From NCBI GenBank assembly GCA_029262005.1, contig JAJDAG010000086.1, positions 94,344 to 158,343 on the forward strand: a stretch of DNA of 64,000 nt. Reading direction: 5' to 3'. Of the stretch, positions 4,072 to 13,661 are shown one piece after another; within the stretch, counting starts at the first letter, position 1, and each line of letters opens with the position of its first letter. The stretch comes from Candidatus Zhuqueibacterota bacterium (GTDB lineage Bacteria; Zhuqueibacterota; Zhuqueibacteria; Oceanimicrobiales; Oceanimicrobiaceae). A program made the translations under genes and the position numbers. Under the pieces are notes generated by a model, which ran no database searches, was not told the DNA's origin, and saw only the letters and a program-made list of their open reading frames with translations.

Positions 4072-5490
4072 ATGTCCAAAAAGATTTCAGCTGTATTTGA
4101 ACTTGCAAAAAAAAGTGGTGCAAAAATACTTGATGTCAAATTTATGGACTTCCCGGGGCTTTGGCAACACTTTACAACTCCTATTTCACTTCTGACCGAA
4201 GATCTTTTCGAAGAAGGATTCGGTTTCGACGGTTCCAGCATTCGTGGCTGGCAAGCCATCAACGAGAGCGACATGATTGTCATTCCCGATCCGAGCACAG
4301 CCCTGGTCGATCCTTTCATGCAACCAACGACCTTAAGTCTGATTGGTGATGTGCATAGCCCTCTTACAAAGGAAAGATACTCTCGCTGCCCCCGTCACAT
4401 TGCGCAGAAAGCGGAGGCATACCTCAAGGCCAGTGGCATTGCTGATACCGCTTATTTTGGCCCAGAAGCTGAATTTTTTATTTTTGATGATATTCGTTAT
4501 GATCAGAATGAACACTCAGGATATTATTATGTTGATTCTGTGGAAGGCACCTGGAACTCAGGCCGGGATGAAGGGCCAAACCTTGGCTATAAGCCGCGGT
4601 ACAAAGAAGGATATTTTCCGGTGCCGCCAACAGATGCTTTTCATGATATGCGCAGTGAAATGATCTTGACTATGATAGATTGCGGTCTCGACGTGGAATG
4701 CCATCACCATGAAGTTGCAACCGGTGGGCAGGCAGAAATCGACCTCAAATATGGGCCATTGGTGGCCACCGCGGACAATATGCTGCTCTATAAATATATC
4801 GTCAAAAACACGGCACGAAAGTATGGCAAAACCGTCACTTTCATGCCCAAGCCTTTGTTCAACGACAACGGCTCCGGCATGCACGTGCATCAGAGTCTGT
4901 GGCAAGAGGGCAAACCGATGTTTGCCGGCTCCGGCTATGCCGGCTTGAGCGAGATGGCGCTGCACTACATCGGTGGCATTCTCAAACATGCGCCTGCACT
5001 CATTGCCCTGACCAATCCAACCACAAACTCATTTAAACGCCTGGTACCAGGTTATGAAGCGCCGGTGAACCTGGCTTACTCAAGGAGTAATCGTAGTGCA
5101 GCCTGTCGCATTCCGGTTTATTCAGATAGCCCGAATTCGAAGCGTATCGAGTTCCGATGTCCAGATCCGAGCTGCAATCCGTATCTCGCTTTCAGCGCCA
5201 TGCTCATGGCAGGCCTTGATGGCATCACCAACAAAATTGACCCGGGCGAGCCGCTTGAAAAGGACATCTATGATTTATCGCCAGAAGAGCTTGCCGATGT
5301 GCCATCTACTCCGGGCACACTTTCGGACGCACTCGATGCCCTGGAAAATGATCACGAATTCCTGCTCAGGGGTGATGTTTTCACAGATGATGTCATCGAA
5401 ACCTGGATTCAGTACAAACGCGAAAACGAGGTGGATGCTATGCGCCTGCGACCACATCCGTACGAATTTACCCTTTATTACGACATATAA
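4072..5490 (+). CDS. glnA: Glutamine synthetase type I
   Basis: [44 protein letters not shown]; adenylylation-site motif [10 protein letters not shown]. Confidence 0.97.
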
Positions 5491-5512: not shown

Positions 5513-5552
5513 AAACGCCCGGCGAATAACGACCAACGCCGGGCGTTTTATT
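5513..5552 (+). terminator. Intrinsic terminator downstream of glnA
   Basis: Perfect 12-bp stem AAACGCCCGGCG/CGCCGGGCGTTT followed by TTATTT. Confidence 0.75.
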
Positions 5553-5690: not shown

Positions 5691-8600
5691 ATGCTATTGC
5701 TTGAATCTGAAAAAATCAAATCTCTGCTCCTCACCGACAGAAAAATCGACGCGGCCGAAATTGAGCCGCTTCTTTTCCCTTTCGGATTTGAGGATTGGCG
5801 CACGGCATACAAAAGTCTTTGCCGGCTTATGGCCACCGTTCGGGCGCAAACAGCACTAGCAGACATTTTACCAGCTATTCTTTCTGCGATAGCCGACTCA
5901 GCCAACCCGGATCGAGCGCTGCTCAACCTGGAGCGCTTTGCTGATAGCGTTCCCGACAAGGCTGCGCTGTTCAGTTTTCTCCAGGACAACCCCCGCACCA
6001 TTGAAATGCTGGTTATCTTGTTCGCAGGCAGTCAATTCCTCACCGATATTCTGCTGCGCAATCCAGACCACTTTGAGCAAATAAAGGAACACAAGCGCCT
6101 CACACATGTAAAAAATCGCCTCCAACTCACCACTGAAGGCCGCGATGCAGCAATGGCCTTTGCAACACCTGAACAAAAATTGGAAGCGCTGCGGCGCTTT
6201 CAACGCTGGGAATTTTTGCGTATCGGCACCGGCGATTTGTTCGGCTCTATCGATTTGCAGGCCGTTACTTCCCAATTATCAAACCTGGCCAGAGCAATCA
6301 TTCAAATCTCTCTGGATATTGCCGCAACTGAACTTGAAATCCCAACCGAGGGATTTACGGTTTTAGCCCTGGGAAAACTGGGTGGACGAGAACTAAACTA
6401 CAGCTCAGATATCGACCTGATCTTTCTGTGCCGAAGTCAAAGTGCGCAAACCCAAAAACTGGGAAGGCACCTCATTGCCGCCCTGGCGCAAGCCACACCA
6501 GAGGGATTTCTCTACCGCGTAGACATGCGATTGCGCCCATGGGGTGGCGTCGGCACGCTCGTTCCTACGATTTCAGAGCATGTTTCGTACATCGAAAACA
6601 AGGCGCAACTTTGGGAGAAACAGGCCTTGTATAAAGCGCGGGTCGTAGCTGGCGATGGTGTGCTTGGCATCGATTTTCTCCAACAAATACGCCCGCACAT
6701 TTTGAACCTGCCAAAGGCGGAACTGAGTGAGGAAATCCGGGGGATGAAGAAAAAAATCGAAGACAGGTTAAAGCGGCGCGGCAAAAGCTGGGGTGAAGTA
6801 AAATCAGGCTCAGGTTCAATTAGAGACATAGAATTTGTAACGCAATTTCTGCAGTTGGTGAACGGTGTCACCTTCCCAGAAGTGCATAGCCGCAACACCG
6901 TTGACGGTCTTGCCAGACTGACTGCCTGCAAAATATTGTCGGCACATGACTATCGTGTTGCTGCAGATGGCTACGTCTTTCTCCGATCCGTGGAACACCA
7001 TTTGCAAATCATGCATAATCGCCAGACTCACCAACTACCAAATGAGCCAAGAGAATTAGCTTACCTTGCACGCAGGCTTGGGTTTCAAGGACAGGGAGTT
7101 GGAAGTCAATTTGTGCAGCGATACGAGCAGCACAGCGCCGCTTTGCGTTACTTGTATGAACGCCACCTCGGTGCCGACCAGAAGCAAACCACGCTAAATC
7201 TGGAACCTCAGCAGAGCATTGCAGCATCAGCTTCTGAAATCACAAAACATGTTTCCCGCATGGACAAAGCCTATGCTGTGACCTTCACCCGAAAGGAAAT
7301 CGAACTGCATGCAATGTTAGCCGGAAGCCTGAGCATTGAGAAGCCAGTGGCTTTTGAAGCAAGAAAAATTAACGAAACTGATTGGCAGGTCACCATCGTT
7401 GGCTATGACTACCTTGGCGAATTAGCATTGATTTGCGGACTTTTTTGCGATTACAAGCTCAACATTCTTCAGGGCGCTGTTTTCACTTACGGGCCGAAAG
7501 AAGAACAACAAGCCAAGGTTAACAATTCTCGTTCTTTTAGAAGTTCAAAACGGCGGCCTAAACAAAACCCAACAGAAAATGGGAAAAGAAAAATCGTTGA
7601 CGTCTTTCGGGTACAGCCGGTCGGCAGAAAAGTAAGTGCCGAAACCTGGCTACAGTATTCTGAGGAACTCACCAAGTTTCTGACGGACTTAAGCAAAAAG
7701 AAACAGAATGAAGTTCAGGGAGAAATCGCCCGGAGAGTAGCACTAAAAGTGCACGAAGCGAAAAAAGCAACCGAGACCCTGCTCCCGGTCGAGATTGCCA
7801 TTGACAACACATTGTCGCGGCAGTACACTGTTCTCAGAATTGACGGCGCCGATACAATGGGTTTTTTGTACGAACTTACAAATGCATTGTCGCTAAACAG
7901 CATTCACCTCGTGCGCGTGATGGTAACATCCATAAGAAGCCGCGTTCACGACACACTATTTCTTACGGACGTGCATGGCAACAAGATAATCGATCCGGAA
8001 AGACTCTACAAACTGAGGGTGGCAACAGTTCTGGTTAAGCATTTTACACACATCTTACCCCAGTCTCCAAACCCGCAATCGGCCATGTTGCACTTCAGGG
8101 AATTCGTGTCACACCTTTTTAAGCAACAGGACTGGTCAAATGCGATAGCTTCACTTGAACGGCCGGATGTTCTCGACGCCCTGGCAAAATTGCTTGGAGG
8201 CAGCGATTTTTTGTGGAATGACTTTTTACGCATGCAACATGAAAATCTTTTCCCTGTGGTGGAAAACTTACAAGCACTCGGGCATGCCAAAAGCAAAAAA
8301 ATGTTGCAGGTAGAGTTGGATGCATTCTTGTTGAAAGAGAAAAACTTTTCTGATAAAAAAAAGCGGTTGAATGCATTCAAAGATCGTGAAATGTTTCGTA
8401 TTGATATGCGCTACATTCAGGGTGCATTGCCTGACTTTAAACAATTCTCACGTGAACTCTCAGAACTGGCTGAATCCGTGGTAGAGTCAGCAATTCACCT
8501 TGCGTTCGAAAACCTGGTTTCACAATTTGGAAAACCGACTCTTGAGGATAATACGGACTGTCCATGGACGATGTGTGCTCTGGGTAAGTTTGGTGGCCAG

Positions 8601-9410
8601 GGACTCGGGTTTGCATCAGATATCGAATTAATGTTCATTTACAAAGGAGCCGGCACAACCACAGGAAAAACAGAAATGCCAAACAGCCTGTTCTTTGAAA
8701 AACTCGTTCATTTAATTTGTAATACCATTATTTCGAAGCATGAAGGCATATTCGAAGTTGATTTGAGATTACGGCCTTACGGCAAAGCAGGGAGCTTTGC
8801 AGTTTCCCAGAACTCTTTCCAGAAGTACTATGCAGCGGGCGGACCCGCCTGGGATTATGAACGCCAGGCACTGGTTCGGTTGCGCCCCATTGCAGGAAAC
8901 GCACATTTCTCAGCCCGGGTGGTTGTCTTACGGGACACCTGCGTGTACACAGGCATGACACCGGATGTCCAAACCATGCGCGCCATGCGCGAACGCCAGT
9001 TACGGCAATTGGTGGCCGGCGGTGCTGTCAATGCCAAATTCAGCCCGGGCGCCCTCGTGGATCTGGAATATTTGGTGCAACATCTGCAAATAAAATATGG
9101 TTGCGACAACCCTGATTTACGTTTAACCAATACCAACGATGCCATAAACGCGCTAAGTCTGGCAGGTATCATCGGCGAATCTGACTTCAAACAACTTCAA
9201 GAGGCGCATAATTTTATCAGAAAGCTCATTGAGGCTTTACGTATGGTTCGCGGAAATGCTAAAGATTTGAACGTGCCGCCGGAGGACAGCAAAGAATTTT
9301 CTTTTCTTGCAAGACGTTTGGGCTACGGCAAAACGCCATCAGAGCTAAAGGAAGACTTGATTCAACATACTTCGCAGGTACTAATAATTAGCGAAAGGTT
9401 ACTAGGCTAA
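5691..9410 (+). CDS. glnE: Glutamine-synthetase adenylyltransferase/deadenylylase with central ACT-like domains
   Basis: Two nucleotidyltransferase cores (VLALGKLGGRELNYSSDIDLIFL; CALGKFGGQGLGFASDIELMFIY); ~250-aa central region with ACT-like segments (GYDYLGELALICGLFCDYKLNILQGAVFTYG; RIDGADTMGFLYELTNALSLNSIHLVRVMVTSIRSRVHDTLFLTD). Confidence 0.88.
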   Translation: MLLLESEKIKSLLLTDRKIDAAEIEPLLFPFGFEDWRTAYKSLCRLMATVRAQTALADILPAILSAIADSANPDRALLNLERFADSVPDKAALFSFLQDNPRTIEMLVILFAGSQFLTDILLRNPDHFEQIKEHKRLTHVKNRLQLTTEGRDAAMAFATPEQKLEALRRFQRWEFLRIGTGDLFGSIDLQAVTSQLSNLARAIIQISLDIAATELEIPTEGFTVLALGKLGGRELNYSSDIDLIFLCRSQSAQTQKLGRHLIAALAQATPEGFLYRVDMRLRPWGGVGTLVPTISEHVSYIENKAQLWEKQALYKARVVAGDGVLGIDFLQQIRPHILNLPKAELSEEIRGMKKKIEDRLKRRGKSWGEVKSGSGSIRDIEFVTQFLQLVNGVTFPEVHSRNTVDGLARLTACKILSAHDYRVAADGYVFLRSVEHHLQIMHNRQTHQLPNEPRELAYLARRLGFQGQGVGSQFVQRYEQHSAALRYLYERHLGADQKQTTLNLEPQQSIAASASEITKHVSRMDKAYAVTFTRKEIELHAMLAGSLSIEKPVAFEARKINETDWQVTIVGYDYLGELALICGLFCDYKLNILQGAVFTYGPKEEQQAKVNNSRSFRSSKRRPKQNPTENGKRKIVDVFRVQPVGRKVSAETWLQYSEELTKFLTDLSKKKQNEVQGEIARRVALKVHEAKKATETLLPVEIAIDNTLSRQYTVLRIDGADTMGFLYELTNALSLNSIHLVRVMVTSIRSRVHDTLFLTDVHGNKIIDPERLYKLRVATVLVKHFTHILPQSPNPQSAMLHFREFVSHLFKQQDWSNAIASLERPDVLDALAKLLGGSDFLWNDFLRMQHENLFPVVENLQALGHAKSKKMLQVELDAFLLKEKNFSDKKKRLNAFKDREMFRIDMRYIQGALPDFKQFSRELSELAESVVESAIHLAFENLVSQFGKPTLEDNTDCPWTMCALGKFGGQGLGFASDIELMFIYKGAGTTTGKTEMPNSLFFEKLVHLICNTIISKHEGIFEVDLRLRPYGKAGSFAVSQNSFQKYYAAGGPAWDYERQALVRLRPIAGNAHFSARVVVLRDTCVYTGMTPDVQTMRAMRERQLRQLVAGGAVNAKFSPGALVDLEYLVQHLQIKYGCDNPDLRLTNTNDAINALSLAGIIGESDFKQLQEAHNFIRKLIEALRMVRGNAKDLNVPPEDSKEFSFLARRLGYGKTPSELKEDLIQHTSQVLIISERLLG

Positions 9411-13025: not shown

Positions 13026-13661
13026 CTATTCGGTTGCTGCACGAGAACCATCTGCCGCTTTTTCAGCTTTCACTTCCTCAACAGCTTCAGTTTCGGCGGC
13101 CTTGGGCTCCTCTGCTGGTTTGGCTTCAGCCTCAGCAGTTGCCTTAGCTTCCCCTGCTGCTTTGGCTTCAGCCTCAGCAGTTGCCTTAGCTTCCTCTGCT
13201 GCTTTGGATTCAGCGTCAGCAGTTGCTTTGGCGTCAGCGGCTACTTTGGATTCAGTGGCTGCTTTGGCTTCAGCATCTTTAGTCTTTTTTTCTTCTCGCT
13301 GCTCTTGCTGAGATAAAGCCTCAGCCTTCTTCACACGCTCTTCTTGCTGGGTTGCCCATTTTTGCATCCCTTCCTCGATAGCAGCATCATCTGCTCCATT
13401 TCTGATCAGATGCCACTTGTGCAGAATACCTTTTCTCCGGAAAAAACTTTTGACAGTGTCGGAAGGTATCGCACCCTGACCCAGCCAATACAGGACCCGC
13501 TCCTCCTTGACATCGACTTCAACTGGAGAGACAAGTGGATTATAAGTACCCAGCGACTCGATGAAACGTCCATCGCGTGCTTTCCTGGAATCTATCGCAA
13601 CAATTCGATAGAATGGCCTTTTTTTTCTACCTATACGCGTTAAACGCAGACTTACTGACAA
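13026..13661 (-). CDS. rpsP: 30S ribosomal protein S16 with long Ala/Lys/Glu-rich C-terminal extension
   Basis: MSVSLRLTRIGRKKRPFYRIVAIDSRKARDGRFIESLGTYNP; normal S16 core then ~120-aa low-complexity tail. Confidence 0.95.
   Translation of the reverse strand: MSVSLRLTRIGRKKRPFYRIVAIDSRKARDGRFIESLGTYNPLVSPVEVDVKEERVLYWLGQGAIPSDTVKSFFRRKGILHKWHLIRNGADDAAIEEGMQKWATQQEERVKKAEALSQQEQREEKKTKDAEAKAATESKVAADAKATADAESKAAEEAKATAEAEAKAAGEAKATAEAEAKPAEEPKAAETEAVEEVKAEKAADGSRAATE
13114..13281. repeat. 42-bp in-frame tandem repeat in the rpsP 3' region
   Basis: Unit GCTGSTTTGGCTTCAGCCTCAGCAGTTGCCTTAGCTTCCYCT; two near-identical copies (13114-13155, 13156-13197) then diverged copies. Confidence 0.75.

Follow-up and report, generated by a model that had tools for sequence, protein, structure and literature searches.

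A GlnD-type tandem ACT module ahead of the adenylyltransferase half of GlnE, a putative amino-acid sensor in cis

The GlnE encoded in the 64,000-nucleotide stretch of DNA analysed here (the window) carries, between its deadenylylating (AR) and adenylylating (AT) halves, about 260 residues that are, by their sequence, homologous to the complete C-terminal regulatory module of GlnD. We consider it probable (roughly 0.6) that this GlnD-type ACT pair acts as a built-in amino-acid sensor of GlnE, with glutamine as the likely ligand, and that GlnD and PII are unneeded in the genome of the window. Layered covalent regulation is commonly illustrated in textbooks by the GlnD-PII-GlnE cascade, and ACT domains bind various amino acids. 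A GlnE with an ACT domain was undescribed in the papers searched, which were open-licence ones, subscription journals being mostly outside the coverage; the ACT-GlnE architecture may be visible in domain databases while having no published description.

The glnE gene (positions 5691-9410, + strand) encodes a 1239-aa protein, which the ORF translation, Pfam and NCBIfam assigned as a bifunctional glutamine synthetase (GS) adenylyl-removase/adenylyltransferase with the order AR-ACT-ACT-AT. Two PF03710 and two PF08335 stretches were recognised by Pfam (E 2.6e-98 and 2.4e-36), and each PF03710 half was followed by PF08335, the domain composition that defines GlnE. The AR half covers residues ~20-492 (5748-7166, +; Pfam and tree of halves) and the AT half residues 788-1239 (8052-9407, +; Pfam and tree), the latter belonging to a clade of ACT-linked AT halves. 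In a tree of 86 halves, the first half of the window GlnE was orthologous to AR and the second to AT, and the AR half clustered with the first halves of standard GlnE. The naming of the halves as AR and AT is itself transferred, through the tree, from what is established for the E. coli enzyme. The homologous AR and AT nucleotidyltransferase (NTase) halves are shared with E. coli-type GlnE and their motifs are intact. As seen by motif comparison, the catalytic carboxylates are present in both halves: the AR motif, GKLGGRELNYSSDIDLIF (6372-6425, +), contains D-x-D, and the AT motif, GKFGGQGLGFASDIELMF (8583-8636, +), contains D-x-E, which is diagnostic of the ACT-linked clade, whereas the AT half of standard GlnE has D-x-D. 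Unlike E. coli-type GlnE, the window protein scored under the NCBIfam equivalog cut-offs (472 vs 625 and 448 vs 487 bits); therefore, it was filed as a divergent GlnE variant and not as a typical bifunctional equivalog.

The neighbouring gene is glnA (4072-5490, +), which encodes a type I GS according to the ORF, NCBIfam and alignment. The adenylylation-site tyrosine is kept as Tyr400 in DIYDLSPEE, which we take to be equivalent to E. coli Tyr397; a neighbouring glnA and a conserved target tyrosine are a context in common with E. coli-type GlnE. A terminator-like hairpin, recognised by consensus match only, lies between the two genes (5535-5547, +), so glnA and glnE may not share one transcript. 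Adenylylation and deadenylylation of GS is the putative activity of the window GlnE. Elsewhere in the window, an S16-like ribosomal protein ORF (13026-13661, - strand) has an Ala/Lys/Glu-rich tail of ~100 aa, for which a tandem repeat with a 42-bp unit (13108-13255) codes.

The preliminary description of this DNA had noted two ACT-like stretches in the 1239-aa GlnE, between window positions 7260 and 8030. Both were found there, at residues ~563-645 and ~709-775, and they proved to be a GlnD-type ACT tandem. The whole module, delimited with NCBIfam GlnD models and profile-profile comparison, spans residues ~524-787 (7260-8051, +) and consists of a pre-ACT segment, ACT1, a linker helix and ACT2; E. 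coli-type GlnE, in contrast, has no such module ahead of AT. ACT1 (7377-7625, +) was placed by alignment to GlnD tails. Between its predicted beta2 and beta3 the alignment revealed a Lys/Arg-rich loop of ~33 residues with 10 K/R (7494-7589, +), which is missing in GlnD and poorly conserved (mean identity 0.19). ACT2 (7815-8015, +; Pfam and alignment) contains the turn D721-x-x-G724-F-L and D754. An HMM check of the ACT assignment, as the preliminary description had proposed, placed Pfam ACT_ACR9 above cut-off at residues 702-775 (E 1.3e-6). The general Pfam ACT model was weak for the window GlnE (0.16), yet it matched 8/8 relatives, with a best value of 1.7e-9. The best Pfam match of the window ACT2 is thus the ACR9-like ACT of plant ACR proteins (PF24931), which carry no enzyme domains, unlike the window GlnE; a common GlnD-like ACT ancestor is the probable reason for the similarity.

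The relationship to GlnD was evident from several comparisons. Positions 614-842 of TIGR01693 (GlnD), its C-terminal end, aligned to residues 510-776 of the window GlnE, the C-terminal end of PRK05092 (GlnD) aligned to residues 671-778, and NCBIfam GlnD C-terminal ends matched the ACT stretch in 8/8 phylum members with ACT-GlnE. When a profile of the eight phylum ACT-GlnE regions was compared with one of four GlnD tails from the same phylum, the match had a probability of 99.7 and an E of 1.5e-25. It spanned 215 columns and began ahead of ACT1, taking in the pre-ACT segment; the GlnE module therefore corresponds to the entire GlnD regulatory tail, beyond an ACT-like fold. The presumed glutamine-sensing tandem of GlnD sits on an NTase-HD protein, whereas the GlnE module sits on an adenylyltransferase half; moreover, the 18 ACT-GlnE modules form a clade of their own against 18 GlnD modules (support 0.994). 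An ACT fold of the GlnE module is what these alignments predict. Single-sequence AlphaFold2 models of the module and of ACT2 alone were of low confidence (mean pLDDT 37 and 47), and a PDB profile search with the ACT region gave no match.

Among six full-length ACT-GlnE sequences of ~50% identity, ACT2 was the most conserved region tested, with a mean identity of 0.68 vs 0.54 for the NTase regions. Since seven more genomes of the phylum share the architecture, and given the strong conservation of ACT2, it is not a chance or frame artefact. Two residues of the ACT2 turn, an Asp and a Leu (window D721 and L726), do not vary across GlnE-ACT and GlnD, and the turn Gly is present in 83%. The form D-x-x-G-(F/L)-L is retained in the clade of the window, and the glycine is absent in some ACT-GlnE lineages (DTPAFL, DTPFFL). 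The mean ACT2 identity between the GlnE-ACT and GlnD groups was 0.28 vs 0.40 inside each group.

It had also been suggested that this GlnE may shorten the GlnD-PII-GlnE cascade, and that the genome be searched for glnB and glnD. In the genome of the window (98.7% complete, a draft of 205 contigs), no match to PII was obtained by a search that was positive in 13/14 controls, unlike the situation with E. coli-type GlnE. Neither was glnD found with the GlnD model, which matched only GlnE and, in the middle of the model, an unrelated-looking ORF. Both results favour a shortened cascade. The same pattern recurs in relatives with GlnE-ACT: searches for PII and GlnD were likewise negative in the three other members of the family of the window with a full ACT-GlnE (G002, G003 and G005) and in G064, from another family of the phylum. 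G063, of the same family as G064, has a standard GlnE (1001 aa), a GlnD (896 aa) and several PII. In G061-G063, all with standard GlnE, GlnD is present and a gene for a Tyr51-bearing GlnB stands immediately before glnA, as a glnB-glnA operon. In the window, G003 and G064, glnA is followed by glnE-ACT.

In four genomes of the family of the window (G001, G004, G006 and G007) no GlnE was found, and GS adenylylation control appears to vary inside this family. Four loci of the same class (L008-L011), from genomes without GlnE, encode ~1000-aa proteins with PF08335 and NTase-like stretches, which sometimes match the GlnD model twice. They form a GlnE/GlnD-like family without a clear name and perhaps have a related role in genomes without GlnE.

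The wider distribution was surveyed in 385 genomes over the bacterial domain with a profile of the ACT region and PF03710. ACT-linked GlnE was present in 18/385 genomes, and in ten of them, outside the phylum, an ACT module was likewise joined to a GlnE half. Three of these (G350, G214 and G307) have the AR-ACT-AT order of the window; three (G252, G381 and G106) have a permuted ACT-AT-AR; two (G173 and G310) have adjacent separate genes, AR then ACT-AT; and in two (G190 and G326) ACT-AT is encoded with AR on a different contig. In all cases and in all three arrangements the ACT module stands immediately before the AT half, on which the Pfam and NCBIfam scans agree. In plasmid records, GlnE and GlnD-like matches occurred only as separate proteins.

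In this sample, whose genome counts are phylogenetically non-independent, a GlnD-type match was found in 83/93 genomes with standard GlnE vs 5/18 with ACT-GlnE. The Fisher p, which ignores relatedness, was 2e-7 by genome and 9e-5 when the ACT genomes were collapsed to families. Outside the family of the window, GlnD absence was scored with one ACT profile, the first-look candidates being partly scored. Gamma-type GlnD tends to escape this profile, whose local version missed E. coli GlnD, so 83/93 would be too low rather than too high. The five ACT-GlnE genomes with GlnD (G350, G214, G307, G173 and G310) also have canonical PII, their GlnB having Tyr51 and ~60-70% identity to E. coli GlnB. Therefore, replacement of the cascade by the ACT module is not universal. 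In G350 (L096), one cluster contains an amtB-like ORF, a GlnD-like ORF and two copies of glnB; as this genome also has GlnE-ACT, the two systems occur side by side.

In the other ACT-GlnE genomes, PII was absent or divergent. The divergent PII adjoining amtB-like ORFs have mostly lost Tyr51 (G190, G326, G381 and G106), and it is kept in G252; G381 has two further PII adjoining nifH-like ORFs. In G012, and for two of three copies in G024, PII-like genes lie within RND metal-efflux operons, as is the case for PII-NG (PMC7726332). The persistence of PII in family f6 was narrowed on inspection, the usable Tyr51 of these genes being absent or the genes containing stops. In G024 (L065:3119-4900), where GlnE-ACT is present and no GlnD match was obtained, a divergent PII with Tyr51 lies directly upstream of glnA.

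To follow the two halves, trees were built with FastTree. In the tree of 86 half-domains, standard AR and AT halves separated with a support of 0.979, the exception being one actinobacterial protein whose two halves grouped together. All 18 ACT-linked halves formed one clade on the AT side (support 1.0), and their AR partners were scattered over three or more positions among the AR halves. D-x-E was found in 18/18 ACT-linked AT halves, whereas D-x-D was found in 22/22 readable standard AT halves and in 18/18 AR partners; the change from DxD to DxE is conservative. Because the ACT-linked AT halves stand apart from the AT halves of G060-G063, we rejected the idea that the module had simply been inserted in frame into a GlnE of this phylum. 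What is conserved is the ACT-AT unit, a single clade spanning several bacterial lineages, with AR attached in various orders or encoded separately; the earlier wording that ACT domains are inserted between the halves fits the present protein but likely not its origin. In the simplest history, a GlnD tail would have fused once to an AT half, and the product would later have been joined to AR in varied orders and spread between lineages. Our best reading is an old ACT-AT fusion with putative in-cis sensing of an amino acid, probably glutamine, that would often replace GlnD-PII. We give about even odds to the broader proposal that an ancient ACT-AT lineage with glutamine sensing in cis repeatedly took over GS control, making GlnD and a uridylylatable PII discardable, and that this AT-owned sensor recombined with AR into the three arrangements.

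How the sensor might act can be outlined from the GlnD ACT pair, which is regarded as a glutamine sensor (PMC3173338). With ample ligand, most likely glutamine, the ACT pair would favour the adjoining AT half and disfavour AR, and GS from the neighbouring glnA would be switched off by adenylylation. Under glutamine shortage, AR would dominate and GS would be reactivated, GlnD and PII being unneeded in the window genome. The ligand, the direction of control and the independence from other proteins are all inferred. The control would be aimed at AT in particular, since the ACT-AT adjacency is invariant. GlnE had been described beforehand as normally controlled by PII; this stands in part, as E. 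coli GlnE (AT/AR), besides its control by PII and PII-UMP, responds to glutamine at a site of its own (PMC5448240). Direct glutamine sensing would thus not be novel in itself; the novelty would lie in a sensor of GlnD origin placed in cis, together with PII-free control of GlnE.

The same E. coli site, which exists without ACT domains (PMC5448240), leads to the first alternative, in which the ACT pair is structural, holding AR and AT together, dimerising or docking GS or another protein, and glutamine is sensed at a site of GlnE's own. The loss of the turn glycine from some ACT-AT proteins agrees with such a role. However, the very high conservation of ACT2 and the association of GlnD loss with the ACT module argue against it, and the module persists in split proteins holding only AT, so it is more than an AR-AT linker. 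We regard a purely structural role as unlikely. Slightly harder to sustain is that the module senses another ligand, such as another amino acid, a nucleotide, or 2-oxoglutarate in place of PII, and thereby a different nitrogen signal. ACT domains are known to differ in the amino acids they bind (PMC3173338), the GlnE module differs from GlnD ACTs in its ACT2 and its extra loop, and sensing of 2-oxoglutarate and ATP/ADP would otherwise be lost with PII; nevertheless, the nearest homology is to the GlnD tail, with glutamine as the presumed ligand, and the ACT2 turn is preserved in the window's clade. Finally, an intact cascade whose glnB and glnD lie in the gaps of the draft assembly, the ACT module only fine-tuning it, has in its favour the five genomes possessing both systems but is very improbable, because both genes are independently missing from G000, G002, G003, G005 and G064 (96-99% complete) and the PII search performed well in the controls.

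With a built-in, probably glutamine-reading ACT pair as the preferred reading, a three-protein nitrogen-sensing relay may be shortened to one protein. If this is true, one protein would unite the presumed sensor of GlnD with the chemistry of GlnE, with no PII, and the cascade would have collapsed into a single switch. ACT-GlnE would also offer a small, testable system for asking whether a GlnD-type ACT pair reads glutamine, and how, and the ACT-AT association specifically predicts which activity the sensor would control.
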